DNA of 64,000 nt from an uncultured Litoreibacter sp. (lineage in GTDB: Bacteria > Pseudomonadota > Alphaproteobacteria > Rhodobacterales > Rhodobacteraceae), in the NCBI GenBank assembly GCA_947504205.1, contig CANNGL010000002.1, forward strand, positions 744,001-808,000. The letters run 5' to 3'. Positions 24,421 through 59,023 of the stretch are shown here, piece by piece (within the stretch, counting starts at the first letter, position 1; each line of letters starts with the position of its first letter). A program made the translations under genes and the position numbers. Below the pieces are notes generated by a model, which was given only the letters and a program-made list of their open reading frames with translations, was not told where the DNA came from and made no database searches.

Positions 24421-24663
24421 TCCTGACAGACGCGATCCGACCTCGGGCATAGAATGGTGCGTTCGCTCTGATGGCCGCCAAGATCCCAACCTGTGAATTC
24501 GATATTTTCACTGCTTGCGCACACAGCAAAAAGATTTCCGCATATGCACTATGGAGAGCAACATTGAACTGCAAAGGAAGCGGCCGTTCAAGATATGCTA
24601 TGTCCTTGCCGTCAGCGCTGTGCTGATGACTGAGTGCGGAGGGAGGATTGGAGGGTATGAATA

Positions 24664-25074
24664 ATGCCAAGAGTCCAACTTCCCGCTGTCACGCCAAAAC
24701 ACAGAGCCTGAAACAAGGGGCGCATCATCGGTCAAAAACGGCCGCTGATACCGAAGCAAGTCTGGGCCATTCGGACACGTCTAGAGCTCGCGGGCCCTTT
24801 CATGTTCCCAAGTAGCTTTCACGATCGGCCACACATATCGACGCGCCAGTACGGTCGGATTGTACGCGATTGGGTGACTTCCATTGGGTTAGAGCCAAGT
24901 GGATATGGCACGCACTCATTGCTCCGGACAAAGGCAGCGGAAATCTATCGCAAGACCGGTAATCTACGTGCCGTCCAACCGCTGCTAGGTCACATTAGGG
25001 TCGACAGTACCGTTCGTTACCTAGGTGTCGAACTAGAAGATGTTCTGAGTATTGCAGAGCGGATCGACATCTAA
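24664..25074 (+). pseudogene. Tyrosine recombinase remnant (stop codon and internal deletion)
   Basis: Reading from the ATG at 24664, the start gives a degraded form of the N-terminus of the intact recombinase at 39519-40151, with a TGA in place of the Trp codon of its RPAWNKGRI motif. NKGRIIGQKRPLIPKQVWAIRTRLELA follows, then about 100 codons are missing and the frame resumes at FHDRPHISTRQYGRIVRDWVTSIGLE. The end, LLGHIRVDSTVRYLGVELED, keeps the catalytic Tyr, but the HxxR motif reads HSLL. It cannot encode an active enzyme. It is on the opposite strand to the other two copies. Confidence 0.85.
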
Positions 25075-25215: not shown

Positions 25216-26493
25216 TCAGGTCGGCAAAATGGATCTCGCAGCCTGCTCAACTGCGAATTTCGTCTTCTCCAGGTCCTCTGCGGTGATCACGAGTGACGGA
25301 TAGAGTTTACCCGGCGACTTGAATATCCCGTGCTGACGCAGCGCCTTATTGTAGGTTGCATTCTGTGCGGGATCGTCATGCTTGGCTGTGCGGTAGTCGC
25401 GGCATGCGCCTGTCGTGAAGAGAATATCAAAAAGGGTCTCGTCCCCGCAGATTTGATGCGGAATCCCTGCTGCGTCGAGCGCACGGCTTTGCATGTCCTG
25501 CAACCTGCGGCCGTTGTCGCGGAGGCGATAATACTGGCCGTCGCGTTTCAACACTTCCATGGTCTTGAGACCCGCCGCCGCCGCAATCGGATTGCCAGAA
25601 AGTGTGCCAAGTTGCATCAGCCATTTATCACCACCTACGATAGATTTGTCGAAGTGCTGCATGATCTCGGCGCTGGCCCCGAGGGCAGCAAGCGGAAACC
25701 CCCCGCCAATAATCTTGCCCAGCGTGCAGATATCCGGCGTGACGCCATAGCGTTCCTGTGCCCCGCCATAGGCCAGCCTGAACCCCGTGACGATTTCATC
25801 AAAGATCAGCAATACGTCGTGCTTGTCGCACAGATCGCGCAGGCCTTGCAGGTAACGGGGTGCGGCGGGGATGATCCGTTGCAGCGGTTCGGCGATGATG
25901 GCGGCAATGTCGTTGTGTTCGCTCAGCAGAGCCTCAACAGCGGCGAGATCGTTGAAGGGCGCGATCAACATCTGATCGGCAACGCTTTGCGGGATGCCCG
26001 CGCTGTCCGGCACGGCTTGAGGGAAGTTAACGCGCCGCTCGGGCGCAAGGCTCATCTGTGCCTCCGCGCTCATGCCATGATAGCCGCCTTCAAACTTCAG
26101 GATTTTGTTGCGCCCCGTATAGGCGCGCGCGAGGCGGATGGCATACATATCTGCCTCTCCACCCGACGCGACGAACCTGACTTGCTCACAACAGGGCACG
26201 GCTTCGACGATTGCCTCGGCTAGAGCGATGCCTTTGGCGTTGTTGGCAAAGAACGTCATGCCCTTCGGGAGTTGCTCCAGCACCGCCTCCATCACCTCTG
26301 GGTGACCGTGGCCGAGCAGCATGGGGCCGGAGCCGATCAGGTAGTCGACATATTCGTTGCCATCTTCGTCCCAAACACGGCTGCCCTCGCCCCGTGCGAT
26401 GATGATGCCTGGGTCAAAATTGCCAAATCCGCCCGAAGGCAGGACGGATTGAGCGCGGGCGATCCACTCGGCTTGGCTTGTCAGTTTTTGCAT
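25216..26493 (-). CDS. Class III PLP aminotransferase (glutamate-1-semialdehyde-aminomutase-like)
   Basis: About 425 residues from the ATG at 26493, which overlaps the previous stop in TGATG. RVWDEDGNEYVDYLIGSGPMLLGHGHPEV, VRFVASGGEADMYAIRLARAYTGRNKILKFEGGYHG and LLIFDEIVTGFR are class III hallmarks; the PLP lysine is in TLGKIIGGGFPLAALG. GSAM-like enzymes outside haem synthesis often transaminate omega-amino acids or beta-amino acids. As the last gene of a nine-member operon for amino-compound breakdown, it probably removes or shifts the amino group near the end of the pathway. True HemL elsewhere in the genome is expected. Confidence 0.85.
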   Translation of the reverse strand: MQKLTSQAEWIARAQSVLPSGGFGNFDPGIIIARGEGSRVWDEDGNEYVDYLIGSGPMLLGHGHPEVMEAVLEQLPKGMTFFANNAKGIALAEAIVEAVPCCEQVRFVASGGEADMYAIRLARAYTGRNKILKFEGGYHGMSAEAQMSLAPERRVNFPQAVPDSAGIPQSVADQMLIAPFNDLAAVEALLSEHNDIAAIIAEPLQRIIPAAPRYLQGLRDLCDKHDVLLIFDEIVTGFRLAYGGAQERYGVTPDICTLGKIIGGGFPLAALGASAEIMQHFDKSIVGGDKWLMQLGTLSGNPIAAAAGLKTMEVLKRDGQYYRLRDNGRRLQDMQSRALDAAGIPHQICGDETLFDILFTTGACRDYRTAKHDDPAQNATYNKALRQHGIFKSPGKLYPSLVITAEDLEKTKFAVEQAARSILPT

Positions 26494-27596
26494 CAATCAA
26501 TCTCCAAGATCGGTTGGTCGAGGATGTCCATATCGGGGGTCACACCCAGCCCAGGCCCATCGGGCGGGGCGATGCGGCCATCTTTGCGCGTGGGGCAATC
26601 CGGGGCGACCCGGGGGCCGACGTAGCCGGATAGGTCACATACATTCAACAGTGCGCCATGCGGTGTAGAGGCGGCAAAGTGCAGCGACGCGGCGGTGACG
26701 ACGTCAGACCCCCAAGTACATTCGGCGCAGATTTCCGCGCCAAGATGCACGGCCAGATCGCGGGCGCGGCGCATCGCAGATAAGCCGCCGAACTTCGAGA
26801 GTTTCAAGGCGACTGCGTCTAGCACGCCCAACTCTGCCGCGCGCATCAGCGAGGCAAGATCGTAAGCGCCTTCGTCGATTTTCATGGGCAGACCGGTGGC
26901 ATTTCTGACGGCAGCGCAGTCTTCGAGCGTCTTGCAGGGCTGTTCGAGCATCACGTCGAGATGCGCTACGGAACGGCCTGTACGGGTGGCTTGCAGTTTG
27001 GTCGCGCCGCAGTTCCAATCGCCATAGACCAGTGGCCCCGCGCCAACAGCCTCGCGCACTTTGATCAGACGTTCTGCATCTGCTTGCCAATCCGCGTCGG
27101 CACCCAGCTTGACCTGAAACTGGCGGATGCCCGTTGCGTAAGCCTCTTTCGCGATCCGCGCCATCTCATCCGGGGCAATGCAGGTGATCGAGTGATAAAG
27201 CGGCATATCGGCCCGCGTGCGCCCGCCCAGCAGAGCATAAAGCGGTTGCCCCGTCGCTTTGCCGAACAGGTCCCAGAGCGCCATATCGACAATGGATTTG
27301 GCATGGAGGTGTCCTTGCAGAAAACCATCAAGCTTGCGCATGGTCGCGTCGACGCCAAAGGGGGTGATCCCCAGGATTTCCAGCGCCATTTCGGTGATTG
27401 CACTGGGCACGCCATCGGCAAATGCGGGCAGGTAATGCGGGATCGGGCAGACTTCGCCCCAGCCTTGCAGGCCGGTGTCAGTTTCGAGGCAGAGCACGTG
27501 GGTTTTGACCGTGTCACAGGTCTTACCCTCGGCCATGTAGTAGGTTTCATGGCTGGTCAGATCGACAGACCACAGGGTGATGCGCGTGACCTTCAT
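26493..27596 (-). CDS. Enolase-superfamily enzyme (mandelate racemase/muconate lactonizing type), paralog 1
   Basis: A 367-residue MR/MLE protein: N-terminal capping domain (KTHVLCLETDTGLQGWGEVCP), then the barrel with FQVKLGADADW (catalytic Lys of the KxK position), metal ligands in YGDWNCG, LEQPC and IDEG, and the second Lys in VALKLSKFGG. Members racemise, dehydrate or cycloisomerise carboxylate substrates through an enolate. Start ATG 27596 overlaps the preceding stop by 4 bases. It is closest in style to paralog 3 (28696-29802). Confidence 0.86.
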   Translation of the reverse strand: MKVTRITLWSVDLTSHETYYMAEGKTCDTVKTHVLCLETDTGLQGWGEVCPIPHYLPAFADGVPSAITEMALEILGITPFGVDATMRKLDGFLQGHLHAKSIVDMALWDLFGKATGQPLYALLGGRTRADMPLYHSITCIAPDEMARIAKEAYATGIRQFQVKLGADADWQADAERLIKVREAVGAGPLVYGDWNCGATKLQATRTGRSVAHLDVMLEQPCKTLEDCAAVRNATGLPMKIDEGAYDLASLMRAAELGVLDAVALKLSKFGGLSAMRRARDLAVHLGAEICAECTWGSDVVTAASLHFAASTPHGALLNVCDLSGYVGPRVAPDCPTRKDGRIAPPDGPGLGVTPDMDILDQPILEID

Positions 27597-28699
27597 GTGT
27601 AGACCGCCACCGGATCGCCCAAGGTGTCTTCATCGGGATGAACACCGAGGCCGGGCTCTTCTGGCAAATGCAGGTGACCGTCCGTATTGCGCGGCCCACG
27701 GCCTCCTGCAATGTCGATGGTGATCATATCCTGACAGGCCCAGACTGCATGGCAGTTGGCGTCCGGTATTGTCGCCGCCAGATGCAGGGCTTCAGTATCG
27801 GCGAGGACGGTGCCGCCGGTTGCCATAACAAACATGTCGATCCCATGGGAGAGCGCGATGTCGCGCATACGGGCCGCTTTGGTCAGCCCACCGACACGGT
27901 TGAGTTTGATGCCGAAGACCTCTGCCAACCCATCGCGTGCGATGCGGGCGGCGTCTTGCAGCGTGACAAGGCTTTCATCGACCGACACGGGTGCCGCATG
28001 TTTCCCGCTGATGGCCGCGATGTCGTCCAGCGTTTCGCACGGCTGTTCAAACATCACGTTCAGGTCTTCGGTCGCGGACATAACACGCAAGGCCTGCTGC
28101 CGCGTCCAGCCACGGTTCACATCGTACAGGACGATCTCGCCGTCGCGCCGCATGTCTTCGACGTCGCGGATGCGGGCGATGTCCCGCGCCACGTCGCCGC
28201 CAATCTTAACGGAATGAGCGATGTAGCCGCGTTGGCGATAGCGCTCGATCACGGCGCGGGTTTCTTCCACTGTTTTGGCCCCCACGGAGGAGGCGATGGC
28301 ACGCGGGGTGCGTGATCCGCCGCCCATCAGGTCGGCTATCGGCAGACCTGCTGCTTGCCCCGCAATGTCCCAGCACGCCATGTCGATGGGGCTTTTGGCA
28401 TAAAGGTGGCCAGGCAAGGCGAGGTCCATCGCGCGTTCGACATCAAGCACTTTGCGTGGATCAAGCCCGAGGATGAAAGGCGCCATCGTCTCAATCCCCG
28501 CACGAATGCCCGGCCCATGGGCGGGCACATAGGTGTGCCCCCAGGGCGTGCCCTCACCCCAGCCAGTGAGGCCTGCATCGGTCTCGATCTTGACGATCGT
28601 CGCGTCGAGCACCTCAAACTTTAGCCGACCACCAGAGAGCCAATAGGCGTCCTCAAGCGGCAGATCGACCTGAAACACGGAAAGGCGCGTGATCTTCAT
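27593..28699 (-). CDS. Enolase-superfamily enzyme, paralog 2
   Basis: A 368-residue MR/MLE protein. Barrel landmarks are HSVKIGGDVARD, VLYDVNRGW, MFEQPCETLDD, VDESLV and FGIKLNRVGGL, giving two lysines and three acidic metal ligands. It diverges most from the other two paralogs; in particular the C-terminal strand reads MFVMATGGTVLADTEALHLAA in place of ED/ECTWG. A different substrate or different stereochemistry is therefore likely. It is coupled to its neighbours by ATGA overlaps at both ends. Confidence 0.86.
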   Translation of the reverse strand: MKITRLSVFQVDLPLEDAYWLSGGRLKFEVLDATIVKIETDAGLTGWGEGTPWGHTYVPAHGPGIRAGIETMAPFILGLDPRKVLDVERAMDLALPGHLYAKSPIDMACWDIAGQAAGLPIADLMGGGSRTPRAIASSVGAKTVEETRAVIERYRQRGYIAHSVKIGGDVARDIARIRDVEDMRRDGEIVLYDVNRGWTRQQALRVMSATEDLNVMFEQPCETLDDIAAISGKHAAPVSVDESLVTLQDAARIARDGLAEVFGIKLNRVGGLTKAARMRDIALSHGIDMFVMATGGTVLADTEALHLAATIPDANCHAVWACQDMITIDIAGGRGPRNTDGHLHLPEEPGLGVHPDEDTLGDPVAVYT

Positions 28700-29802
28700 G
28701 CGGTATACTCCGCCGCTGGTCCGCCGAGACTGTCAAAGTCCGGCGTAACACCCAAGCCCGGCGCGTCGGGCGCATAAAGCTTACCTGCCTTCGCCCAAGC
28801 GCCGCCCACCCCCGTTGAACGCGTGTTGTAATTCATCAGATCGGTCGTGTTCTGCAGGAAATCGGACGGCGTTGACGCCGCAAAATGCGCCACCGCAGTG
28901 CTTGCGATTTCACCGCCCCACGTATCTTCGGCGACCACCGGAATGCGGGCCTCTACCAAAAAGTCCCGGACGCGGCGGGCTTTCGACAAGCCCCCAAGGT
29001 TTGAGATTTTCAAACAGCATATTTCTGCGCCACGGTCTACGACGATACGCTGGGCGGCGGTCATGCCCGTAACGCATTCATCCAACTTCATGGGCTGTTG
29101 GGCGACACGGCGGACCTGCTGACATTCCTCATAGGTGCGGCAGGGTTGTTCAAGGATGTAATCCAAATCTGCCGTCGCGCGTGCAACACGAATGGCATTG
29201 TCGACGCGCCAGCCCTGATTGGCGTCGGCCATCGCCATTTCCCCAGGCTGAAGCAGCGCAACGCCAGCTTTGATCCGATCAATGTCTGACGTCCAATCGC
29301 CGCCGACCTTGATCTGGAATTGCCGATATCCCTCCGCCCGGTAGCGTTCCATTTCGGCAAGGGTTTCTTCGGTCGCTTTTTGTGGGGCCACCCGGTACAT
29401 CGGTGCGCCGTCCGTAAGTTTGCCCCCGAGAAGCATCCAAACAGGCTGGCCGCAAGCTTGGCCCAGAATATCCCAGCAGGCTGCATCGAACGGGGCTTTG
29501 GCATAGCCGTGCCCTTGCACCGTATGATCCATAATCTGTTCGATCCGCGCGACTTGCCGGGGGTCCTCGCCCAGCAGGTTTGATGCGGCGAGGCGGGCAA
29601 AGGCCTCCACCCCTTCGGAATACGCGACCATGTAGTTTTCGCCACAAGGGGTGAATTCACCGCAACCCTGCAGGCCTGCGTCCGTATCTATGACAACGAC
29701 GCTTGCCTTTGCGATCTTAATGGCATTGCCCGCACCCCAGACATAGGCCCCACCAACGTAAGGCAGATCGGTCTTAAAGACGCGGATGCGGGTGATTTTC
29801 AC
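28696..29802 (-). CDS. Enolase-superfamily enzyme, paralog 3 (cis-3-hydroxyproline dehydratase/betaine epimerase-like)
   Basis: A 368-residue MR/MLE protein with FQIKVGGDWTSD, MADANQGWRVD, ILEQPCRTYEE, KLDECVT and CLKISNLGGLSKARRVRD. These motifs resemble enolase-superfamily enzymes acting on proline derivatives, such as cis-3-hydroxy-L-proline dehydratase and the hydroxyproline-betaine epimerase HpbD, though this is by eye only. It is the first of the three paralogs to be translated. Together with a demethylating flavoprotein and a Rieske oxygenase it suggests epimerisation of a chiral betaine. Confidence 0.86.
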   Translation of the reverse strand: MKITRIRVFKTDLPYVGGAYVWGAGNAIKIAKASVVVIDTDAGLQGCGEFTPCGENYMVAYSEGVEAFARLAASNLLGEDPRQVARIEQIMDHTVQGHGYAKAPFDAACWDILGQACGQPVWMLLGGKLTDGAPMYRVAPQKATEETLAEMERYRAEGYRQFQIKVGGDWTSDIDRIKAGVALLQPGEMAMADANQGWRVDNAIRVARATADLDYILEQPCRTYEECQQVRRVAQQPMKLDECVTGMTAAQRIVVDRGAEICCLKISNLGGLSKARRVRDFLVEARIPVVAEDTWGGEIASTAVAHFAASTPSDFLQNTTDLMNYNTRSTGVGGAWAKAGKLYAPDAPGLGVTPDFDSLGGPAAEYTA

Positions 29803-30905
29803 AGGGCGGATTCCTTGCGCGCCGTCGGCACGACAACAATGTTGCCAGTGTGCTCTTTGGCGATGAAGGCGGCCTGTGCCTCGCGGAGTTGGTCGAGCCG
29901 GTAGGTCGCGGCGAGTGCTGGTTTGATCTCGCCCTGTTCGATGTAGCGGATCAGGTTCGGCATGACCTCGGGGGGGATTACGGTCGAGCCGGTGAAGGTC
30001 AGATCGCGCAGATAGAATGTGCGCAGATCAAGATCGACCATTGGACCCGCGATGGCGCCAGAGCAGGTGTAGCGGCCTCCGCGTTCAAGGACGTCTATGA
30101 GTGTTGGCCAGTATGGACCACCGACGATATCGGCAACGACGGTGATGCGCTCTTCCCCGAGTGCCGCCCGGAGGTCTTTGGGTGCGCGTGGCAAAATCGC
30201 GTCGGCGCCAAGTTTCGCCACCTCACCGTGTTTCGCATCAGACGCCATCGCGATCACCCGCGCGCGGCGGCGTTTGGCCAGTTGCACCAACGCGCCGCCG
30301 ACCCCGCCTGATGCGCCGGGGACCAGCACGGTGTCAGCATGTGTCACCTTGGCACGGGTCAACATGCCCTCGGCAGTGGAATAGGAGCACGAGAACGTCG
30401 CGAGTTCTGCGTCCGTCAGGTCTGAGTTGATGGCAAGAGCATTGCGGGCGGGCGTTGTTGTGTATTCGGCAAAACCACCGTCACGCTCGGACCCGAAGTA
30501 GCCAGTCTTATCAAGGTTATCGAGATCATCGGCGTCCCGCAGCCAACCGTCCGTAATCACCCGTTCACCAATGCGGGACGGATCGATATTTTCGCCGACA
30601 GCGACGATCTCTCCGCAGACATCAGCCCCCTGGATGCGCGGAAATGTGATCGGGGCACCACCCCATGTCGGGTCGTCCTCGCCGACCTCGTTAAATGCGC
30701 CGCCGGTTGTGGCCGCCGTCACCGCTTTGGAATACCATCCTGATCGCGTGTTCACGTCCGTGTTGTTCAACCCGCAGGCGCCCACCTTGATCAGAACTTC
30801 ATCCGGAGCCGGATCAGGGCGCGGCCAAGCGCCGTGCCAGATCATCTGATCCAGATCGCCGTGGCCCATGGTGACCATGGCCCCCATTGTTGTTGGCAAG
30901 GTCAT
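29799..30905 (-). CDS. Medium-chain dehydrogenase/reductase, quinone-oxidoreductase-like
   Basis: A 368-residue MDR protein. DEVLIKVGACGLNNTDVNTRSGWY is the GroES-like domain start and VLVPGASGGVGGALVQLAKRRRARVIAM the NAD(P)-binding fold. The Cys/His zinc ligands of classical alcohol dehydrogenases are only partly present, so a zinc-independent reductase is as likely as an alcohol dehydrogenase. It is coupled by ATGA overlaps with the flavoprotein gene upstream and enolase paralog 3 downstream. Confidence 0.84.
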   Translation of the reverse strand: MTLPTTMGAMVTMGHGDLDQMIWHGAWPRPDPAPDEVLIKVGACGLNNTDVNTRSGWYSKAVTAATTGGAFNEVGEDDPTWGGAPITFPRIQGADVCGEIVAVGENIDPSRIGERVITDGWLRDADDLDNLDKTGYFGSERDGGFAEYTTTPARNALAINSDLTDAELATFSCSYSTAEGMLTRAKVTHADTVLVPGASGGVGGALVQLAKRRRARVIAMASDAKHGEVAKLGADAILPRAPKDLRAALGEERITVVADIVGGPYWPTLIDVLERGGRYTCSGAIAGPMVDLDLRTFYLRDLTFTGSTVIPPEVMPNLIRYIEQGEIKPALAATYRLDQLREAQAAFIAKEHTGNIVVVPTARKESAL

Positions 30906-33349
30906 TCGGCGGCCTCTTTCGCTGCATCTGTGCGCGGTAGCAGGCTTTGCGGGTCATAGGCTGGCTCACCCAGCACCTTGGCGGCGCGCGGTGCGCCGTG
31001 AATAATAACCTCAAGCGCGGTACCGTGTGCTGCAGCCTCTGGCTTGATATAGGCAAAGGCCAGGACCTTGCCGACGGTTGGGCCATAGGCGACGGAGACG
31101 GTGGAGCCGACCACCTTGCCATCCAGCATCACCGCTTCGCCACCGTGGCCGTCCGCAACGCCGTCGGGTTCGATTTCGAGGTAGGCACAAATCCACGGTA
31201 GATCGGCGTTCAGGGTTTGGTCGCGACCCAGATAATCCTTGTCCTTGCGTGCGAAGCGCAGCACATCGGCTTCGGCCAGCGTGACCTCGTTGGTCAGCTC
31301 GCCCGCGCCTTTAAAGCCCTTCTCCATCCGCATCGCGTTCATCGCAAAAGACCCGTAATCAGCGATGCCATGGACCTCACCCGCAGCCCAAAGCGCATTG
31401 TAGACGTCGAGGCAGGCAGCATGCGGCATATGGAATTCCCAGCCCAGTTCGCCCGCATAAGACATGCGGAACGCCCAGTTTTTGTGGCCAGCCACGGTGA
31501 TTTCCTGGGCCGACAACCAGCGGAACCCCGCGTTTGAAAGGTCTGCATCGGTGCAGGCCGCCAGCACATCGCGCGCCTTTGGGCCGTTGAGTGACAGCGC
31601 GCTCCATTCAGAGGACAGGGCTGTGATCGTCACGTCCTCTTCGGCGCGGTTGTGGGCCAGATGATCCAGCAAGCGCTGCTCAAAAAACGCGGCACAAACC
31701 AGATAAAACTTGTCCTCAGCCATCCGTACGATGGTGGTTTCCAGCTCAATCCGGCCGGCGCGATTAAGCATATGGGTGAGAGTGATCGAGCCGACATTCT
31801 GCGGCATCCGGTTCGCGGTGAGGCGATCCAGCAGCGCATAGGCGTCGGGACCAGAGACCAACACCTTGGTAAAGGCGGTCACGTCCATGACGCCAACGCT
31901 GTCGCGGACGGCTTTGACTTCGGCTGCGACCATGTCGTCGACAGGCGTGCGGTTGAAGGAATAGTGGTCTTCCTGCGGGATCCAATTGGCGAAAAAGCGC
32001 GGACGTTCAAAGCCATAGACTTCCTCGTGCACGGCACCTTTGGCTTTCAGCAGGTCATGAAGCGGGGAGGGCTTGATCGGCCGCCCGGCCAGCCGGTTAA
32101 AATGAGGGAAGGGTATTTCGTGGCGCAGGCAGTAGTCTTCTTCTGCTTTCACCACCTGCCAGTCCTTCGTGGCATAGCTGCCAAAACGGCGCGGATCGTA
32201 ATCGCGCATCGAGATATCCGCCGCCCCGTGCACCATCCACCGCGCCAACTCCCGCGTCAGGCCGGGCCCCCAGCCGATGCCGATCTGCGTGCCGCAGCAG
32301 CACCAGTAGTTGCGCACACCGGGTGCGGGACCGATCAGCGGGTTGCCGTCGGGCGGATGGCTGATCGCGCCGTGGACCTCGCGCTGGATGCCAAGGTCCG
32401 CAAAGATCGGCATGCGGTTCAGGCTTTCCTCCAGGTATGGCATGACCCGGTCGTAATCCGCATCGAAGAGCCAGTTTTCATAGTGCCACGGGCAATGGTC
32501 GTGCCAGACGGAATTCGGGTTCTCCTTTTCATAGATCCCGATCAGCCCGCGCTTTTGCTCCATCCGGATGTAGCCCGACACCTTTTTGTCGTCGCGGATC
32601 ACGGGGAGTTCGGTGTCCAGCGCCTCAAACTCCGGCACAGGTTCGGTGACAAAGTAGTGGTGCGTCATGGACGTCATCGGCAATTGCAGTCCTGACCATT
32701 CGCCCATCTGGCGGGCGTAGGTGCCGCCTGCATTGACCACATGTTCGCAGGTGATCGTGCCTTTCTCCGTTTCGACCCGCCATTCACCGGAGGGCAACTG
32801 CGTGATGTTGGTGGCGCGGCACTGGCGGATGATTTGCACACCCTTTTGACGTGCACCGGTGGCCATGGCCATTGTCACGTTGGTGGGGTCGACGTGGCCG
32901 TCATCTGGCGTGTGCAGCGCGCCCAGCACACCGTCGAGGTTATAGAAGGGATGAAGCTCCGCGACTTTTTCTGGCCCGACCAATTCGATGTTGAAACCCA
33001 ACGCGCGTCCGACCGACAAAGTATGTCGCAGCCAGTTCATTTCATCCTCGGTGTAGGCGAGGCGGAACGACCCGCAGCCATGCCATGTGACGGGCTGGCC
33101 GGTCTCTGCTTCCAACCCACTGGAATAAAGCCCGATGTTGTAATCGACGCATTTGCCGAGCCCGAAACTTGAGGTGGAGTGCGTGATCTGCCCCGCTGCG
33201 TGCCAGGTGCTGCCGGACGTGAGCTCTGCCTTTTCCAACAGGACGGTCTCTTCGCCCCAGCCCTCGTGGCCGAGGTGATAGGCAAGGCCAACGCCCATGA
33301 CGCCGCCGCCGACAATGACGACGCGTGCAGTTTTGGGGAAATCAGACAT
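30902..33349 (-). CDS. Dimethylglycine/sarcosine-dehydrogenase-like flavoprotein with folate-binding domain
   Basis: An 815-residue protein. An N-terminal FAD-dependent DAO domain (RVVIVGGGVMGVGLAYHLG; LTSGSTWHAAGQ contains the His that carries covalent FAD in this family) is followed by the FAO_M region and C-terminal GCV_T domains (VKAVRDSVGVMDVTAFTKVLVSGPDA, MRMEKGFKGAGELTNEVT). Such enzymes oxidise an N-methyl group of a secondary or tertiary amine and hand the one-carbon unit to tetrahydrofolate. This is the strongest sign that the locus breaks down an N-methylated compound. It overlaps the DUF2834 gene by 8 bases. Confidence 0.9.
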   Translation of the reverse strand: MSDFPKTARVVIVGGGVMGVGLAYHLGHEGWGEETVLLEKAELTSGSTWHAAGQITHSTSSFGLGKCVDYNIGLYSSGLEAETGQPVTWHGCGSFRLAYTEDEMNWLRHTLSVGRALGFNIELVGPEKVAELHPFYNLDGVLGALHTPDDGHVDPTNVTMAMATGARQKGVQIIRQCRATNITQLPSGEWRVETEKGTITCEHVVNAGGTYARQMGEWSGLQLPMTSMTHHYFVTEPVPEFEALDTELPVIRDDKKVSGYIRMEQKRGLIGIYEKENPNSVWHDHCPWHYENWLFDADYDRVMPYLEESLNRMPIFADLGIQREVHGAISHPPDGNPLIGPAPGVRNYWCCCGTQIGIGWGPGLTRELARWMVHGAADISMRDYDPRRFGSYATKDWQVVKAEEDYCLRHEIPFPHFNRLAGRPIKPSPLHDLLKAKGAVHEEVYGFERPRFFANWIPQEDHYSFNRTPVDDMVAAEVKAVRDSVGVMDVTAFTKVLVSGPDAYALLDRLTANRMPQNVGSITLTHMLNRAGRIELETTIVRMAEDKFYLVCAAFFEQRLLDHLAHNRAEEDVTITALSSEWSALSLNGPKARDVLAACTDADLSNAGFRWLSAQEITVAGHKNWAFRMSYAGELGWEFHMPHAACLDVYNALWAAGEVHGIADYGSFAMNAMRMEKGFKGAGELTNEVTLAEADVLRFARKDKDYLGRDQTLNADLPWICAYLEIEPDGVADGHGGEAVMLDGKVVGSTVSVAYGPTVGKVLAFAYIKPEAAAHGTALEVIIHGAPRAAKVLGEPAYDPQSLLPRTDAAKEAAE

Positions 33350-33656
33350 GATTTACGGTTCGCTCTCTGAGGTAAAGGAAGGCGGGCAGCGCCATTGAAA
33401 GACCGATCAATGGCGCGGCAGGGATCACAAAAAGCCAGCCCTTAAGGCCCGCAAGTCGCGCCTCACGAATGGCAAAGATCCAAAAGACGCCACAGGTCAG
33501 AAAGAAGTCGGTGGACAGACCAGCCGTTGCGCCGTTCACGTACAAGGCCGTCAAGATCGTCACAGGCCAAAGACCGTTCTCGACCAGGAAGGGCAAGAAG
33601 CTGACCCATGGCAGGACCGTCCCAACAATAGCTGCAAGCAGGTAGAACGTCTGCAT
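33342..33656 (-). CDS. DUF2834 small membrane protein
   Basis: A 104-residue protein with about three hydrophobic helices: the start TFYLLAAIVGTVLPWVSFLPFL, a middle helix ending in CGVFWIFAIREARL and the final WLFVIPAAPLIGLSMALPAFLYLRE. This matches the DUF2834 pattern. It is the first gene of the minus-strand operon, directly facing the RpiR gene. Its function is unknown; a small accessory membrane protein is all that can be said. Confidence 0.78.
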   Translation of the reverse strand: MQTFYLLAAIVGTVLPWVSFLPFLVENGLWPVTILTALYVNGATAGLSTDFFLTCGVFWIFAIREARLAGLKGWLFVIPAAPLIGLSMALPAFLYLRERTVNHV

Positions 33657-33702
33657 TTCAAGTTTCCGACTGAATCGTTTCTTTTCTCTCGACAGGCTAA
33701 TC

Positions 33703-33754
33703 GGACAAAAGTACCATCGTCAATCATGAATGGGACAAATGTATCATCAACGAT
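33703..33754 (+). promoter_or_regulatory. Direct repeat spanning the RpiR start codon, candidate operator
   Basis: Two similar ~22-bp blocks, each starting GGACAAA and containing GTAxCATC, lie at 33703-33724 and 33733-33754, exactly 30 bp apart (three helical turns). The second is inside the first codons of the RpiR gene. They sit in the shared divergent promoter region and could bind the regulator; no ribosome site precedes the ATG, so a leaderless transcript is possible. Confidence 0.45.
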
Positions 33755-34613
33755 TCTGGAGCGGCTGGCCGGTGAGCTGTCAGAGCTGACGCCAGAGGCG
33801 CGCAAGGCCGCGACCTACGTGCTGGAAAACCCGCGCGATGTGGGAGTTTCGACAGTGCGCGAGATTGCCGAGGCGGCGAATGTGAAACCGAACACCGTGG
33901 TGCGGATGGCGCGGCAGGTGGGCTTTGAGGGATACGAGGATTTCCGTGCGCCCTTCCGTGACGCCATTCGGACGGGCGCTGCAGATTTCCCCGATCGTGT
34001 CCGGTGGCTGCAGGATATCTCCAAGTCCGGCGAACTTGGCGGGCTTTACGCCGATATGGTCCGCGACGTGATGGCCAATATCGAAGAAACCTTTGCGGGT
34101 ATTTCCACCGAAAAGCTGCAAACCGCGGCACAGGCGATCTGGAACGCCCGCCGTGTTTTCACCTTGGGCGTGGGCGTGAACAACTCTGTCGCGCGGAACT
34201 TCACCTATCTGGCCTCGACCGGCATGACCGAATTCCACGCCATTCCGCGCCCGGGGTCCACGCCGGTGGATGATCTAGCCTGGGCGGATGAGCAGGACAT
34301 CCTGATCGCGATTACCTGCAAGCCCTACCGTTCGGAAGTGGTTGAAGCCGTCAGGATTGCACGGGAACAGGGCATGGTCATTGTCGCGCTGTCCGACAGC
34401 CCTGCGAGCCCCATCATTCGTATGGCCGACCATGGCTTTGTCGTAGCCGTAGAGACACCGCAATTCTTTCCGTCTTCCGTCAGCATCATCGCCTTGCTGG
34501 AAACCTTGCTGTCCTTTGTGATCGCTGTCGCCAGCGATGAGATCCCTGCACGGGTTGAAACCTTCCACAAACGCCGCCACCAGCTTGGCCTGTATCACGC
34601 GGAGGCGCCATGA
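33726..34613 (+). CDS. MurR/RpiR-family transcriptional regulator
   Basis: A 295-residue regulator. The N-terminal HTH_6 domain reads LTPEARKAATYVLENPRDVGVSTVREIAEAANVKPNTVVRMARQVGFEGYEDFR, and a SIS domain follows (ARRVFTLGVGVNNSVARNF, QDILIAITCKPYRSEVVEAVRIAREQGMVIVALSDSPASPI). SIS domains bind phosphosugars or other small ligands. It opens the plus-strand operon, overlaps the Rieske gene by 4 bases and faces the minus-strand operon, so it is the obvious local regulator of both arms. Confidence 0.92.
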   Translation: MNGTNVSSTILERLAGELSELTPEARKAATYVLENPRDVGVSTVREIAEAANVKPNTVVRMARQVGFEGYEDFRAPFRDAIRTGAADFPDRVRWLQDISKSGELGGLYADMVRDVMANIEETFAGISTEKLQTAAQAIWNARRVFTLGVGVNNSVARNFTYLASTGMTEFHAIPRPGSTPVDDLAWADEQDILIAITCKPYRSEVVEAVRIAREQGMVIVALSDSPASPIIRMADHGFVVAVETPQFFPSSVSIIALLETLLSFVIAVASDEIPARVETFHKRRHQLGLYHAEAP

Positions 34614-35689
34614 GCGGGCCGATCAGATCACTGGCCGCGCGGTACTACACCGACCCCTCAGTGTTCAAACTGGAAACGGGCGGCTTGCTCGCCCGGACAT
34701 GGCAGTTCGGATGCCATGCGTCACAACTTGCGAAAACCGGCGACTATGCAACTTTTGAAATTGCGGGCGAAAGCCTCTTTGCGATCCGCGGGCGCGACGA
34801 CAAAATCCGTGTGTTCTACAACGTCTGCCAGCACCGCGCGCATCAGTTGGTCAGCGGAACCGGCACCACGCGCGTTGTCGTCTGCCCTTATCACGCATGG
34901 ACCTATGAGCTGACCGGCCAGCTGCGGGCAGGGCCAAATATCAAAGCCGTTGAGGGGTTCGACACATCCAGCATCTGTCTGACCGAGGTGCGGGCCGAAA
35001 CCTTTCTTGGCTTTGTCTTCGTGAACCTCGACCCGGATGCCGCCCCGATGGAGGACTGGTTTCCAAACGCGCGGGCCGAACTGGAAGAATGGGTACCAAA
35101 TTGGGCTGAATTGAAACCGCTCGAATGGGTTGAGATTCCGGAGAAGTGCAATTGGAAAGTCTCGGTCGAGAACTACTCGGAGTGCTATCACTGCTCCCTC
35201 AATCACCCGACCTTTGCCAACGGTGTCGTCAAGCCCGAGACCTATGACATCCAACCGCAAGGCAAATGCCTGCGCCACACAACAGAGTGTCAGGCGCTTG
35301 ATCAGATGACCTACGACATCAACTCGGGCTTTGCACATTCACACGAATATTCAAGCTGGTTCCTGTGGCCGATGTTCAGCTTTCAGGTCTATCCGGGCAA
35401 TGTGCTGAATACCTATCACTGGCGGGCGATTGATGCGGATCACGTGGTGGTCTGGCGGGGCTGGTATTCGGTTGGCGCCATTGATGATGAGAAGGTCCGC
35501 AAGCTCGCGCAACAGGATCGCGCCACCACTGTGGAAGAAGACATCCACCTCGTTGAAAGCGTTCATCGCGGCCTGAAATCGCGCGGCTATGTGCCGGGGC
35601 CACTTGTGGTTGATCCGAAAGGCGGGGTGAATTCGGAGCATCCGGTGATGCATCTGCAGGCTTGGATGAAAGAGGCGATTGATGACTGA
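34610..35689 (+). CDS. Rieske non-haem iron oxygenase, alpha subunit (quaternary-amine demethylase-like)
   Basis: A 359-residue oxygenase. The Rieske cluster ligands are in NVCQHRAHQ (CxH) and CPYHAW (CxxH); the mononuclear iron site lies in VENYSECYHCSLNHPTF. The ENYxECYHC form is shared with GbcA-, CntA- and stachydrine-demethylase-type enzymes, which act on trimethyl- or dimethylammonium compounds, as opposed to aromatic-ring oxygenases. No flavin/ferredoxin reductase gene is in the locus, so the electron donor must be encoded elsewhere. It likely carries out the first demethylation, releasing formaldehyde. Confidence 0.88.
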   Translation: MSGPIRSLAARYYTDPSVFKLETGGLLARTWQFGCHASQLAKTGDYATFEIAGESLFAIRGRDDKIRVFYNVCQHRAHQLVSGTGTTRVVVCPYHAWTYELTGQLRAGPNIKAVEGFDTSSICLTEVRAETFLGFVFVNLDPDAAPMEDWFPNARAELEEWVPNWAELKPLEWVEIPEKCNWKVSVENYSECYHCSLNHPTFANGVVKPETYDIQPQGKCLRHTTECQALDQMTYDINSGFAHSHEYSSWFLWPMFSFQVYPGNVLNTYHWRAIDADHVVVWRGWYSVGAIDDEKVRKLAQQDRATTVEEDIHLVESVHRGLKSRGYVPGPLVVDPKGGVNSEHPVMHLQAWMKEAIDD

Positions 35690-36515
35690 CTTTGCCATGC
35701 CTGAAAAATGGAGCGCGGAGCAAAAGCTGTTCCCGCATCAGGTGGGCTTTACCTGCCCGCCCTTTGACTACGACGCAGCACCCTCTGACTTTCTGCGCAT
35801 GTCGCCAGAAACGGTCGGCGTGCACGGTTGGATGCTGCATGTGCCGGACTACGCGCATGGGCTCGACCAGCGCAAAGCGAACTTCGGTATGATGGACGAT
35901 TTCGTGCACTGCATGGCGCGCAACGGTGTCGATGTTTGCGGGCAGGTTGGATCGAATTGGGTCCATGCCAGCGGTCTGGGTGTCGAGGGGATACGCCAGC
36001 ACTGTGCCGATCTGTCGGACAAGTATGAAACCCGATTTTACATGGCCGGCTACGCGATGGTGGAGGCGCTGCGCGCGATGAACGTCGAAAAGGTCGCGCT
36101 GAATGGTGCCTATCACTGGCCCGATTGGTGGCAAGGCACCGCAGGGTTTCTGCGCGAAGCCGGGTTTGATGTGCTTTGGGCCGGGAATTTCGTGGATCAG
36201 GGCTGGTTTCCCGATCAGGAGACCGTGAACGCCAAGCGCTGGATTTTCGACGGTGATTTGTTCGAGCGCAGCTTTGGCTTTGTGGCCGACAAGGCCCCCG
36301 GCGCCGATGCCTATCTGATCAACGGCATGTGCAATTTCCGCTCTGGTCCCAACGGCCTGCCCCAGCGCCCCCTCCATCTTGCCCGCGCAATGGAAGCCAA
36401 GCTTGGCAAGCCCATCATTGGGCACGACACGGCGCTTTACTGGCGGATCATGAAGGACCTTGGCATCGCGCCGACCACGCCACAAAGCCAGCTGCTGGAG
36501 AGTCTTCATGCATAA
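35682..36515 (+). CDS. Asp/Glu racemase superfamily protein (maleate isomerase/arylmalonate decarboxylase-like)
   Basis: About 277 residues from the ATG at 35682, overlapping the Rieske stop by 8 bases. MVEALRAMNVEKVALNGAYHWPDWWQGTAGFLREAGFDV and KPIIGHDTALYWRIMKDLGIAP resemble the second-half motifs of maleate isomerase and arylmalonate decarboxylase. One central Cys is present (GADAYLINGMCNFRS), at about the second catalytic-cysteine position; the first site (CGQVGSNWVH) is less clear. It may isomerise or decarboxylate a dicarboxylate formed after ring or side-chain cleavage. Assignment within the superfamily is uncertain. Confidence 0.7.
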   Translation: MTDFAMPEKWSAEQKLFPHQVGFTCPPFDYDAAPSDFLRMSPETVGVHGWMLHVPDYAHGLDQRKANFGMMDDFVHCMARNGVDVCGQVGSNWVHASGLGVEGIRQHCADLSDKYETRFYMAGYAMVEALRAMNVEKVALNGAYHWPDWWQGTAGFLREAGFDVLWAGNFVDQGWFPDQETVNAKRWIFDGDLFERSFGFVADKAPGADAYLINGMCNFRSGPNGLPQRPLHLARAMEAKLGKPIIGHDTALYWRIMKDLGIAPTTPQSQLLESLHA

Positions 36516-37252
36516 GATCATAGCCCTCTGGGCGATCCCGCGTTCCACGTCGACAGCCTTTGAATGGATGGTGCGCCAGCGGGGCGATCTGGACTGCCTG
36601 CACGAGCCCTTTGGAGAGGCATGGTACCAAGGCGAGGACCCGCTTTGGCCGCGTTTCAAAGACGGCGAGAAAACGACGCCGGGCCTTACCATCGAGAGCG
36701 TTTGGGACGACATCCAGGCACGGGCCGCAAGGGGCCCGGTCTTTCTCAAGGATTTCCCGCACTACATCAATCACATGTGGACGCCCGACTTCTTGGCGCA
36801 ATTCACCCACGCTTTCCTGATCCGCGATCCGGCCAAGACGATTTCGTCCGTGTACAACAAATGGCCCGACTTCGATGAACTTGAAGTCGGGTTCCCGGAG
36901 CAGCGCGCCTTGTTCGATTTGCTGGCGGCGTTGAACGGCGCACCGCCGCCCGTCATCGACAGCGACGATTTGCTGGAAGACCCTGACAGCATGGTCGCGG
37001 CCTTTTGCGAGGCTGTGGGCATTCCGTTCCTGCCAGATGCCATGAGCTGGGAGCCCGGTGGCGATCCGTCGGCGCATAGTTGGTGGGATGGGGGGGTCGT
37101 TTCACGCGAACCTTGCCCAATCCTCAGGGCTTAAGCCGCAAGAGCGCCGTTATGTTGAAGTCGCCGATGCGCCTGAGCGGGTTCGCCGCGTGCATCGCCG
37201 TATGAAGCCGCACTACGATCACCTTTATCAGCATCGGATCAAAGTGCGATGA
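36508..37252 (+). CDS. Sulfotransferase-family protein with a +1 frameshift in a G7 run
   Basis: The ATG at 36508 overlaps the previous stop by 8 bases. The N-terminus IIALWAIPRSTSTAFEWMVRQ is the P-loop-like 5'-phosphosulfate site of the sulfotransferase fold. At 37090-37096 seven G residues follow the GAT codon; as written the frame ends at 37134. With six G the frame continues as SFHANLAQSSGLKPQERRY, the usual family C-terminus, and stops at 37252, giving 247 residues and a 4-base ATGA overlap with the next gene, like every other junction in this operon. So the gene was intact recently, or the base is a sequencing error. It may not transfer sulfate; close relatives are simply annotated as sulfotransferase-like. 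Confidence 0.8.
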
Positions 37253-38700
37253 AGAAGACCTATTGGCAAAACTACATCGACGGCACATGGGTCGATGGAG
37301 GTGCGGGGCGGCTCGACGTGTTCAACCCCGGAACGGGGGAGAAACTCGCAGAGCAGGCGCTTGCCGATGCCGCCGACGTGGACCGCGCCGTCATGGCGGC
37401 CCGGTGTGTGCATTTGTCCGGCGCGCTGTCTGATCTGCGCCCGGTGGAGCGGGGCCGTATGGTACAGGCCATGGGGCGCTTCCTGCTCGACCATATCGAA
37501 GAGATTGCGCCGGTTCTGACGCTGGAACAAGGCAAACCGCTCTGGGAAGCCCGGATCGAGGTTGAGGGCGCGGCCCGCTATTTCGAATACTATGGCAATC
37601 AGGCCGAAACCGTCGAAGGCCGCTCGATCCCGCTGGGCAAAGGTTATTTCGACTTCACCACATATGAACCTTTCGGCGTGTCTGCCCAGATCATTCCTTG
37701 GAACTACCCTGTAGAAATGACGGCGCGGTCGCTGTCAGCGGCGCTTGCAACGGGCAACGCCTGCGTCATCAAAACGCCAGAACTCACCCCGCTCAGCAAC
37801 GCGTGGTTCGCCCTTGCGGTCGAAGCCGTGGGCCTACCCAAAGGGGCCGTGAATATTCTCTGCGGGCTGGGGGGTGAGGCGGGTGCTGGGCTCTCAGCGC
37901 ATCCGCACGTCAACCAGATCGTGTTCACGGGGTCGGTTCCGACAGGCGTCGCAATTGCAACCGCCGCCGCCCGAAATGTTGTGCCTTGCGTGCTGGAGCT
38001 GGGCGGCAAATCCGCCGCCATCGTCCATGACGACGCCGATCTGGATGCCTTTGAAAACGACGTGCGCTGGGGCATCTATTTCAACGCAGGTCAAGTGTGT
38101 TCGGCCATGAGCCGTGTGATTGTGCACGAAAGCATCCACGATGAGCTCGTGGACCGTATGGTTGGCGTGGCCAAGTCCTTGACGGTGGGACCCGGCAAGG
38201 ATCAACCCGAATTTGGCCCGACCATGGCTGCAATGGTGTCTGAGGCGCAACGGGATCGCGCCGCGGACATGGTGAGTGCTGCGCAAGGCCAAGGGGCGCA
38301 GGTCGCCACGGGGGGCCGCAAGATGAACATCCCCGGTGCGTTTCTTGAACCCACAATCGTAACGCATGTGACCCCCGACATGGATATTGCCAATGAAGAA
38401 GTTTTTGGCCCCGTCCTGTCCGTTTTGAAATTTGCATCCGACACAGACGCCGTTCAGATCGCCAACGGCACGCCTTACGGGCTGGTTGGCGGCGTGTTTA
38501 CCCGCGATCTTGACCGCGCAACCAGCGCCGCCCGCCAGTTGCGCGCAGGTCAGGTCTTTATCAACGAATGGTACGCGGGCGGGGTGGAAACGCCCTTTGG
38601 CGGTTACGGAAAATCAGGCTACGGTCGCGAGAAAGGCCGCGAGGCGCTTTGGAGCTACGTCCAGACCAAAAACATCGCGATCAAGTTGCAGGGACAATAG
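37249..38700 (+). CDS. NAD(P)-dependent aldehyde dehydrogenase
   Basis: A 483-residue ALDH. IIPWNYPVEMTARSLSAALATGNACVIKTPELTP is the cofactor-binding entry, FTGSVPTG the coenzyme loop, CVLELGGKSAAIV holds the general-base Glu, and FNAGQVCSAMSR the catalytic Cys. It resembles betaine-aldehyde and succinate-semialdehyde dehydrogenases. In this operon it probably oxidises an aldehyde made by the aminotransferase or by demethylation steps. It overlaps the frame-corrected sulfotransferase gene by 4 bases and touches the next gene with no spacing. Confidence 0.93.
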   Translation: MKKTYWQNYIDGTWVDGGAGRLDVFNPGTGEKLAEQALADAADVDRAVMAARCVHLSGALSDLRPVERGRMVQAMGRFLLDHIEEIAPVLTLEQGKPLWEARIEVEGAARYFEYYGNQAETVEGRSIPLGKGYFDFTTYEPFGVSAQIIPWNYPVEMTARSLSAALATGNACVIKTPELTPLSNAWFALAVEAVGLPKGAVNILCGLGGEAGAGLSAHPHVNQIVFTGSVPTGVAIATAAARNVVPCVLELGGKSAAIVHDDADLDAFENDVRWGIYFNAGQVCSAMSRVIVHESIHDELVDRMVGVAKSLTVGPGKDQPEFGPTMAAMVSEAQRDRAADMVSAAQGQGAQVATGGRKMNIPGAFLEPTIVTHVTPDMDIANEEVFGPVLSVLKFASDTDAVQIANGTPYGLVGGVFTRDLDRATSAARQLRAGQVFINEWYAGGVETPFGGYGKSGYGREKGREALWSYVQTKNIAIKLQGQ

Positions 38701-39081
38701 ATGAGCACATTTGACGAAGACCTGTTTCTAAAGGGGCTGGAGCAGCGAAAGGCGACGCTGGGCGCCGACTATGTTGAAAAGAACCTCGCCGCCGCCGATG
38801 ATTTCACGCGTCCGTTTCAAGAGGCGATGACAGCCTGGTGCTGGGGCTTTGGCTGGGGCGACGATGTCATCGACGCCAAGACACGGTCCATGATGAACCT
38901 GTCGATGATCGGGGCCTTGGGGAAAATGCATGAATGGGAAATTCACTGCAAAGGAGCAATCAACAACGGCGTCACCCAGGATGAAATCCGTGCGATTATC
39001 CATGTGATTGGCATTTACTGTGGTGTTCCGCAGGCGCTGGAATGCTTCCGTGTCGCGCGAAAGGTACTCGAAGAGACCTAA
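38701..39081 (+). CDS. Carboxymuconolactone decarboxylase family protein
   Basis: A 126-residue CMD/AhpD-like protein. AMTAWCWGFGWGDDVIDAKTRSMMNLSMIGALGKMHEWEIHCKGAINNGVTQDEIRAIIHVIGIYCGVPQALE is the family core. The AhpD CxxC pair is absent, so a decarboxylase-like or lactone-handling role is more likely than a peroxidase one. It follows the ALDH stop directly and is the last gene of the plus-strand arm. The substrate is unknown. Confidence 0.87.
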   Translation: MSTFDEDLFLKGLEQRKATLGADYVEKNLAAADDFTRPFQEAMTAWCWGFGWGDDVIDAKTRSMMNLSMIGALGKMHEWEIHCKGAINNGVTQDEIRAIIHVIGIYCGVPQALECFRVARKVLEET

Positions 39082-39518: not shown

Positions 39519-40151
39519 TTAGATTTCAATGGCTTCCGCGATAGCCAATGCATCTTCTAGCTCGACGCCGAGATACCGGACCGTGCTATCCATCTTGGTG
39601 TGACCAAGCAGTAGCTGCACCGCTCGGAGATTTCCCGTCTTTTTATAGATCTGCGTAACCTTGGTGCGGCGCATCGAATGGGTGCCATAGGCCGTCGCTT
39701 CAAGGCCGATCGAAGTGACCCAGTCGCGTACGATCCGCGCGTATTGACGGGTCGAAATGTGCAGTCGTTCGTGAAAACGCCCTGGCCAAAGATATTCTGA
39801 CCCGACCATCAATTCGTCTTCCATCCATTTCTCAACTGACGCTCTAGTCCCTTCCGATATCTCAAACCGTACAGGTTTCTGTGTCTTGCTCTGTAACACC
39901 GACGCCCGTTCCTTAATCTGGCTGGATGCCATGACGTCAACCACCTTCATCTTCACGAGATCACACCCGCGAAGCTTGCTGTCGATTGCCATGTTGAACA
40001 ACGCGAGGTCGCGATGGTTCTCGGCCAATTCCAGCCGAACTCGGATCGCCCAAACATGTTTGGGCTTCAGCGGTCGTTTCTGGCCAACGATGCGACCCTT
40101 GTTCCAGGCAGGGCGAAGTGCGCGAATGGCTGGTAGGTTTGGTGTCTCCAT
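39519..40151 (-). CDS. Solitary tyrosine recombinase, intact copy
   Basis: A 210-residue catalytic-domain-only recombinase. The expected residues are present: Arg in SKLRGCDLV, Lys in SKTQKPVRF, HxxR in THSMRRTK, His in LLGHTKMDS and the nucleophilic Tyr in VRYLGVELED. The ATG at 40151 follows GGAGG at 8 bases. The N-terminal core-binding domain of XerC/D or phage integrases is missing, as in the small XerD-like proteins common as multiple copies in Rhodobacteraceae. Damaged paralogs lie at 24664-25074 and 49974-50606. It may move an element containing it or be a remnant of one. Confidence 0.88.
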   Translation of the reverse strand: METPNLPAIRALRPAWNKGRIVGQKRPLKPKHVWAIRVRLELAENHRDLALFNMAIDSKLRGCDLVKMKVVDVMASSQIKERASVLQSKTQKPVRFEISEGTRASVEKWMEDELMVGSEYLWPGRFHERLHISTRQYARIVRDWVTSIGLEATAYGTHSMRRTKVTQIYKKTGNLRAVQLLLGHTKMDSTVRYLGVELEDALAIAEAIEI

Positions 40152-40520
40152 GACTGATCCTCCGATCCGCCGCGCCCTCCACAACGTCAACACGACGTTA
40201 ACAAGGCATCGTATCACGGTCTTGCTGCGCTGCACCCCAGGTTAGGATCGAAGCCATCCTGCGAGTTCAAGTTTCTTGTGGCCTGCGTCCCTAACGTGGA
40301 AAATGCGGCAAGCGTTTGATTATTGGTGCTGCCTTGCTGCGGATTCACACGCTCCAGACAAAACTGCCTTATTTCCTTGCCGTATTTACTCAAGCAGGGA
40401 TGCTGCGCGGTCATGGCGCAAGAATCGCTTTGTTGAGACGGTATTCTCCAAATTGGCCGTTCGTTCACTTTGGTCGAGACTCAGCGTCGCCGAAGCGGTA
40501 CTGTCCTCATCTGAAGCGAT
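40152..40520. other. Intergenic stretch upstream of recombinase and BLUF genes
   Basis: The first ~70 bases before the recombinase ATG are shared with the third copy (GATCCTCCGATCCGCC and an AACGT/ACGTT inverted pair in the leader), so the conserved recombinase unit extends beyond its coding region. The remaining ~290 bases contain short frames on both strands, none convincing. Confidence 0.45.
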
Positions 40521-40997: not shown

Positions 40998-41043
40998 TGC
41001 AGACCCTTCTCGCATCGACGCAGACGCGAACCATGATCCGTAA

Positions 41044-43192: not shown

Positions 43193-43262
43193 GCGCGTCG
43201 CGCCAAGACGTCCGCTTCAACACTTGGTCGAACGACAGCCTCACCACCAAAAGGAAGACAAG

Positions 43263-50606: not shown

Positions 50607-50772
50607 GACTGATCCTCCGATCCGCCATACCCCCCCAACCGACAACACGACGTTGACGGTCTGTCTTATCACGTCATGGGGCGATGCATGTTGTCACGAC
50701 TCCGCTAACTATTGGGCGACAGTTGGTGCTCCAATTTGGACTCTAGACGTTCCAGCCAGAACCCACTTCGAC

Positions 50773-57459: not shown

Positions 57460-57583
57460 TCTTCGAATTTCTCGATGTATAGTTTTGATAATTGCGTTTT
57501 TTCTTACTTTCAAAATGCTTTACCGTCCACTGAAGAACGAAGAGACGTCGGTCAAAAGCACCGACGCACCAAGGGAGGACATT

Positions 57584-58546: not shown

Positions 58547-58551
58547 GCCGA

Positions 58552-59019: not shown

Positions 59020-59023
59020 GCGG

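Follow-up and report, generated by a model that had tools for sequence, protein, structure and literature searches.

A putative RpiR-regulated island for onium osmolyte catabolism in an uncultured Litoreibacter sp. and its linkage to DddQ

Betaines and dimethylsulfoniopropionate (DMSP) rank among the major osmolytes of the sea, and dimethyl sulfide (DMS) matters for climate. Among the closest described systems are those of the group V Rieske oxygenases. As excerpted, PMC7948474 separates a clade Va, in which position 203 is Tyr or Phe (carnitine, choline, and benzalkonium), from a clade Vb, in which it is Asn (demethylation of glycine betaine and stachydrine), and names Glu205 as the bridging glutamate. 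Clusters around the gene of the DMSP lyase DddQ are known from Ruegeria pomeroyi DSS-3 (SPO1593 and SPO1596) and from Roseovarius nubinhibens ISM, the latter with two dddQ genes (PMC3338564, excerpt). The DNA described here, called the window, is a stretch of 64,000 bases (bases 744001-808000 of contig CANNGL010000002.1) in the 3.79 Mb genome of an uncultured Litoreibacter sp. Positions 25216-39081 of the window hold a divergent locus of 13 genes around a single gene for an RpiR-family regulator.

This locus appears to be a catabolic island that is controlled by RpiR, spreads horizontally, and serves to break down a small zwitterionic onium osmolyte, namely a quaternary ammonium compound and possibly also a dimethylsulfonium one. 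The reading is given slightly better than an even chance. It draws on a Rieske oxygenase that has CntA as its top PDB match and carries the group Va motif, on an aldehyde dehydrogenase resembling betaine aldehyde dehydrogenase, and on a flavoprotein resembling dimethylglycine dehydrogenase (DMGDH). In relatives it is further supported by a BCCT transporter within the operon, a GFA-family gene next to the oxygenase gene, a recurring core of genes, and a shared promoter block. In the literature searched, which did not include the original dddQ paper, no paper on the whole island was found.

Gene content and predicted route

The minus-strand run encodes, from the centre outwards, a DUF2834 protein, the DMGDH-like flavoprotein, a zinc-type dehydrogenase/reductase (MDR), three MLE-type enolase-superfamily enzymes (EnC, EnB, and EnA), and a class III aminotransferase (AT). 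The plus-strand run encodes RpiR, the Rieske oxygenase (RO), a protein like arylmalonate decarboxylase and maleate isomerase (RAC), a sulfotransferase-like protein (ST), an aldehyde dehydrogenase (ALDH), and a carboxymuconolactone-decarboxylase-family protein (CMD). A previous sequence-only reading had given the same coordinates and families, including the three enolases, the single RpiR, and an Asp/Glu-racemase-superfamily protein, for which a structural model now speaks; its count of 14 genes is corrected to 13. It had also put all junctions at 0 to 11 bases. At most junctions the genes indeed overlap by 4-8 bases, and ALDH and CMD abut (0 bases); the exceptions are the divergent gap of 69 bases (33657-33725) and a gap of 114 bases between the end of ST (37134) and the start of ALDH (37249). 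These lengths assume ATG starts for RAC and ST; the open reading frame listing offers an upstream TTG.

For comparison, 84 loci were examined gene by gene with tblastn. They consist of 80 stretches from species genomes, the best of 572 that were confirmed, plus four plasmid loci, and the resulting table leans to close relatives because only the best stretches were taken. Full loci, each of at least 21 kb, make up 46 of the 84.

RO (34610..35689, plus strand; 359 aa; PF00355/PF00848) is matched best in the PDB by CntA (6y8j, E 5.9e-61), followed by 3vca and 4qup (1e-35) and then by aromatic enzymes. Its motif NYSECYHC, with Tyr189 and Glu191, is found in 113 of 113 loci, a sum of 84 and 29 from two collections that possibly overlap in species. 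Fetched comparison rows read NNRECYHC in a Stc2-type oxygenase and NYLECYHC in YeaW. In all 113 loci Glu191 corresponds to the bridging Glu205 of CntA, as in group V, and Tyr189 is the aromatic residue at CntA position 203, as in group Va. With these two residues the enzyme is predicted to attack a chain carbon close to the onium head and form an aldehyde, not to demethylate. The proposal of the sequence-only reading that the locus is catabolic and serves a compound of the quaternary-amine type is thus upheld by the CntA match and this motif, together with the BCCT genes in three of the 84 loci.

The DMGDH-like protein would also suit a single chiral N-methylated compound, demethylated in succession by the Rieske protein and then by the flavoprotein, with several enolases to handle several stereocentres. 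Such a route is unlikely. RO has Tyr where the demethylating Stc2/GbcA clade Vb has Asn (PMC7948474, excerpt), as in the Stc2-type row, and the enolase copies range from 0 to 4 per full locus. For the second reason a substrate with several stereocentres or several N-methyl groups, as the sequence-only reading had argued from the three enolases, does not follow, and Tyr203 marks a clade that does not demethylate (same excerpt). That reading therefore had the class of compound right, and the chemistry that it drew from the number of enolases is not supported.

In trees, ten RO rows from the clusters form one group (support 100/99). RO was joined to the CntA-like rows and a single Leisingera homolog with a support of only 45/28. 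RO was not seen to group with aromatic-ring oxygenases, and trees with such unsettled deep branches do not reject this placement (p-AU 0.336 for a clade of RO with two aromatic rows). An aromatic or lactone route, with MLE-type cycloisomerases, a carboxymuconolactone decarboxylase, and a ring-hydroxylating Rieske protein, could draw on this result and on two family scores: CMD (38701..39081, plus strand; PF02627, E 1e-18) scores 117.5 bits against PcaC (TIGR02425) and EnB scores 141.8 bits against muconate cycloisomerase. Both scores fall under their cut-offs (155.7 for PcaC), the 13 genes encode neither a beta subunit nor a ferredoxin nor a ring-cleavage enzyme, and the bridging Glu and the Tyr at the CntA-203 position occur in every one of the 113 loci. 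An aromatic route is therefore considered very improbable.

The DMGDH-like FAD/folate protein (30902..33349, minus strand) has the domains DAO, FAO_M, GCV_T, and GCV_T_C of its family and matches dimethylglycine dehydrogenase 4pab over its full length (E 7.1e-146). ALDH (37249..38700, plus strand; PF00171, E 7.7e-151) has its top family score with betaine aldehyde dehydrogenase (TIGR01804; 408.1 bits, cut-off 668.6). AT (25216..26493, minus strand; PF00202, E 5.3e-65) is like GSA aminomutase, and its best NCBIfam model, NF000818, gives 379.4 bits against a cut-off of 398. MDR (29799..30905, minus strand; PF00107 and PF08240) is the probable counterpart of SPO1593 and ISM_14095, as judged from family and neighbourhood without an alignment.

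All three enolase-superfamily genes lie on the minus strand. EnA (26493..27596; PF13378/PF02746) has 4MGG as its nearest PDB entry, EnB (27593..28699) is very close to 3EEZ (746.8 bits), and EnC (28696..29802) is close to 2RDX (684.7 bits). EnB and EnC are 34% and 37% identical to EnA. K163, D193, E218, D241, and K265 are invariant in an alignment of the three paralogs; we take K163 and K265 to be the catalytic lysines on both faces and D193, E218, and D241 to be the three metal ligands. In NCBIfam scoring EnA, EnB, and EnC received 318.2, 331, and 401.8 bits, and none of the enolase genes of the locus reached the cut-off of NF043002.

RAC (35682..36515, plus strand) has no Pfam or NCBIfam match. 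Its AlphaFold model (pLDDT 85.8) is closest in Foldseek to 4IX1, a hypothetical protein (E 2.4e-17), followed by arylmalonate decarboxylase (2vlb/3eis, E 2-3e-11) and maleate isomerase, with Asp racemases weaker. In its modelled fold RAC resembles the Asp/Glu racemase superfamily. Its alignment contains one invariant Cys (217) and Asn92. Cys217 presumably lies near the expected second catalytic place and Asn92 at the position of the expected first Cys, an equivalence assumed without residue-by-residue mapping. ST (36508..37134, plus strand; start codon uncertain) belongs to Sulfotransfer_5 (PF19798, E 1.7e-18).

A route can be proposed from these families. RO would grip the onium head through a cation-pi contact with Tyr189 and hydroxylate a nearby chain carbon, which would yield an aldehyde. 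The head could then be released as an amine, as by CntA on carnitine, or be retained, as by choline oxygenases, in which the onium head stays on the product. ALDH would oxidise the aldehyde, and the DMGDH-like flavoprotein would oxidise N-methyl groups and hand them to folate. The enolases could act on the alpha-carbon by racemisation, epimerisation, or dehydration. The aminotransferase would take off the nitrogen, and MDR, RAC, and CMD would complete the carbon chain. In relatives enzymes are added or exchanged, most prominently DddQ (the DMSP lyase), a GFA-family protein, and BCCT transporters. Homarine was also considered as a substrate and dropped, as literature searches gave no gene link.

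Several results weigh against an onium osmolyte island of this kind. ALDH is present in just 25 of the 46 full loci, so that the step from RO to ALDH is not universal at the locus. The NCBIfam equivalog scores of the locus proteins fall under their cut-offs. The place of RO within group V is unsettled in the trees, including those with long branches removed. CntA has CntB as its partner reductase. With three oxygenase reductases as tblastn queries, no match lay within the operon of any of the 84 loci, and three of the loci had one outside it; the window genome has three reductase candidates elsewhere, all of them weak matches. A transporter is also missing from nearly all operons of relatives. 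The sequence-only reading had noted no transporter in the locus, and this is true of the window copy; four BCCT matches lie on a different contig of its genome, and three of the relatives carry such a gene within the operon.

Distribution in relatives and linkage to DddQ

An alignment of five RO orthologs was used as the query against 390 genomes of the order. An ortholog was found in 75 of these, the window's own included (E <= 1e-100), and five listed genomes of the same genus had no match at this threshold. Among the 46 full loci RO is present in 46, DMGDH in 44, RpiR in 44, EnA in 42, AT in 39, and CMD in 36. EnB (29), MDR (28), ALDH (25), EnC (17), RAC (13), and ST (13) are less frequent. 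The counts of outer genes are lower bounds because some operons extend beyond the 10 kb flank. No enolase gene was found in 1 full locus, one in 16, two in 12, three in 15, and four in 2. The core thus consists of the aminotransferase, an enolase, the DMGDH-like protein, RpiR, the Rieske protein, and CMD, and the remainder is optional. That the gene set recurs across the 84 loci indicates more than chance, and the locus is not rare: it is widespread, modular, and real.

The optional genes also show some order. RAC is present in 26 of the 84 loci; ST directly follows it in 25, and the 26th ends at a contig end. A BCCT transporter gene lies between ALDH and CMD in three loci (all three tested). 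Next after RO, 12 loci carry a GFA-family gene (one copy tested), and after CMD three carry the gene for a beta-keto acid cleavage enzyme (one copy tested). The DUF2834 gene (33342..33656, minus strand; PF11196, E 5.3e-23), wedged between DMGDH and RpiR, was found at the corresponding place in none of the 84 relatives and is an addition peculiar to the window copy among the loci compared.

A DddQ-type cupin (PF16867) is encoded in the minus-strand run of 16 of the 84 loci, and the three copies that were tested were all positive. The nearest neighbouring gene is within 12 bases of dddQ in all 16. In the 13 copies that were aligned, the cupin positions invariably hold His, His, Glu, and His, and two Tyr are invariant as well. 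Among the 390 genomes DddQ was detected in 51 at E <= 1e-30, and 39 of them also have RO (Fisher p 2e-22, a statistic that ignores relatedness). In 32 of the 39, from 11 genera, DddQ lies within 12 kb of RO on the same contig, and all 36 nearby copies are on the strand opposite RO. By our own estimate, about 0.2 of 39 would be expected by chance (24 kb in about 4 Mb). The island is thus the usual home of roseobacter dddQ.

Seven genomes with both genes are unlinked: in three the two lie on the same contig at a large distance, in four on separate contigs. Twelve others have DddQ without RO. The DddQ place was fetched from 12 of these 19 genomes. Two of them (L138 in G249 and L140 in G333) have a separate RpiR-MDR-DddQ-EnC-EnB-AT module, 75-90% identical and without RO and DMGDH. 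Single cluster genes are near DddQ in two others, CMD and MDR in L136 and ALDH in L143. The remaining eight have no cluster gene at >=60% identity; L142 and L145 among them have only distant RO or MDR homologs (28-33%).

The window genome has no DddQ at E <= 1e-30, and the remaining genes of the window cluster are orthologous to those of dddQ-bearing loci. Orthologous loci are in this way tied to one known substrate, DMSP, and only in part, via DddQ. The linkage and the strand arrangement would also fit a cluster for the catabolism of a sulfonium compound, DMSP or an analogue, with a window version that lost or never had dddQ. In R. pomeroyi, mutation of dddQ lowers DMS production by 97%, and DMSP induces the gene (PMC5395565, excerpt), which would agree with such a cluster. 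It is nevertheless quite unlikely. DddQ is absent within 12 kb in 43 of the 75 RO genomes and from the window genome, and it was unfound in 68 of the 84 fetched loci, some of which ended by contig ends. The DMGDH-like and betaine-aldehyde-dehydrogenase-like enzymes suit amines, and the clustered MDR gene of R. nubinhibens failed to correct acrylate sensitivity (PMC3338564, excerpt).

The linkage suggests that DddQ may belong to a wider pathway. It is conceivable, though on the doubtful side, that DddQ is mainly an accessory of the Rieske/DMGDH onium pathway. One RpiR-controlled pathway would then handle both nitrogen and sulfur onium osmolytes, and the release of DMS by DddQ would be, wholly or partly, a by-product of amine-osmolyte catabolism, through a side activity or on a side branch. 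The loss of DMS in the mutant and the induction by DMSP count against an accessory role. The weak affinity of DddQ for DMSP (Km 22 mM; PMC5395565, excerpt) is puzzling. If dddQ belongs to an amine-osmolyte island that roughly one in five sampled genomes of the order carries (75 of 390), the substrate of the island directly tests the purpose of DddQ, and this link is the part of the finding most deserving of experiment. Should the reading be right, the group Va oxygenases would also gain a subfamily, and two solved enolases, 2RDX and 3EEZ, for which the PDB names give no tested function, would gain a context.

Promoter block and mobility

The RpiR gene (33726..34613, plus strand) encodes HTH_6 and SIS domains (PF01418 and PF01380). 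The gap between DMGDH and RpiR is 60-167 bases in 66 loci, measured between tblastn ends. An alignment of 66 rows (65 loci and the window) revealed a block, TCGACA-17-TACCAT-CGTCAATC-ATGAATG, that is widely common to relatives and reaches into the first RpiR codons (33686..33741, plus strand). A similar ACAAATGTATCA occurs inside these codons. Of 79 upstream regions, those of 78 loci plus the window, 57 match the core expression of the block; in the remaining 22 the core deviates or the start lies elsewhere. The hexamer resembling a -10 element ends 8 bases upstream of the RpiR ATG, so the RpiR message may be leaderless. A simple scan found 2 promoter-like sites against a mean of 1.8 in shuffled sequence; as there is no enrichment, the weight rests on conservation. 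The 20-base core of the block has one perfect copy in the genome and one further site with 3 mismatches. No common palindrome was found in the alignment. The split modules L138 and L140 carry the block before their own RpiR genes (scores 73.8 and 73.0; window 92.9). RpiR presumably binds the block.

Tyrosine-recombinase genes flank the island, and the 3' ends of both flanking copies point at it. The left one (24661..25071, plus strand; PF00589, E 1.8e-7) is a remnant with its middle part missing; it is 64-69% identical to the right one (39519..40235, minus strand; PF00589, E 1.3e-16), in which residues 72-141 are unmatched. A third copy at 49977-50672 (minus strand) is 94% identical to the right one. 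Related copies adjoin AT in two other loci (L012 and L015). No inverted DNA repeats of >=25 nt were reported at the two recombinase places, where the copies are instead alike by blastn and protein similarity. Together with the patchy distribution and the plasmid copies, the recombinases suggest horizontal spread, and the island is probably mobile.

Other genes were observed around the island. Just to its left is a gene for a 656-aa protein with an HSP90/histidine-kinase-like ATPase domain (22368-24338). To the right, a gene for a BLUF blue-light sensor precedes one of the 2OG-Fe(II) oxygenase family (40521-41607), and a DUF1611 gene overlaps a gene with an alanine-racemase N-terminal domain (43224-45571), for which D-amino-acid metabolism is a guess. 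About 18 kb off the island are genes of a tripartite tricarboxylate transporter, TctC and TctA (57386-60529).

Comparison with known systems

The locus of a strain named R. pomeroyi (L066) shares AT, EnA, DMGDH, RpiR, RO, and CMD with the window at 67-91% identity. Its DddQ matches the solved DMSP lyase 5CU1 with 432.6 bits over all 200 residues and is nearly identical to it; 5CU1 is presumably the DddQ protein of DSS-3. The window lacks dddQ, and EnB, EnC, MDR, DUF2834, RAC, ST, and ALDH were unfound in L066. L066 is not identical to the DSS-3 cluster, because DSS-3 has an MDR gene beside dddQ (PMC3338564, excerpt).

RAC appears to have the same fold as arylmalonate decarboxylase and maleate isomerase (E 1e-11 to 1e-8, TM 0.6-0.7 by query length), and differs from them in its identity of only 15-19% and its single invariant Cys217.

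The CntA/YeaW loci are like the window in oxygenase length (374 aa in the YeaW row) and in the motif NYxECYHC, with about 35% identity between RO and CntA/YeaW. In a fetched Klebsiella stretch, genes for a semialdehyde dehydrogenase and a BCCT transporter lie beside the CntA/YeaW-type oxygenase. Unlike these loci, the island has DMGDH, enolases, and an aminotransferase, and no reductase was found in its operon. The Stc2-type oxygenase differs from RO in its Asn at the 203 position and in having its own reductase gene, stc4, next downstream. Stachydrine and hydroxyproline betaine loci combine, like the window, a Rieske protein with an enzyme of the same enolase subgroup, in their case an epimerase. 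PDB entries 4H2H and 2PMQ, which we take to be the HpbD epimerase, match EnA, EnB, and EnC at E 1e-49 to 1e-52.

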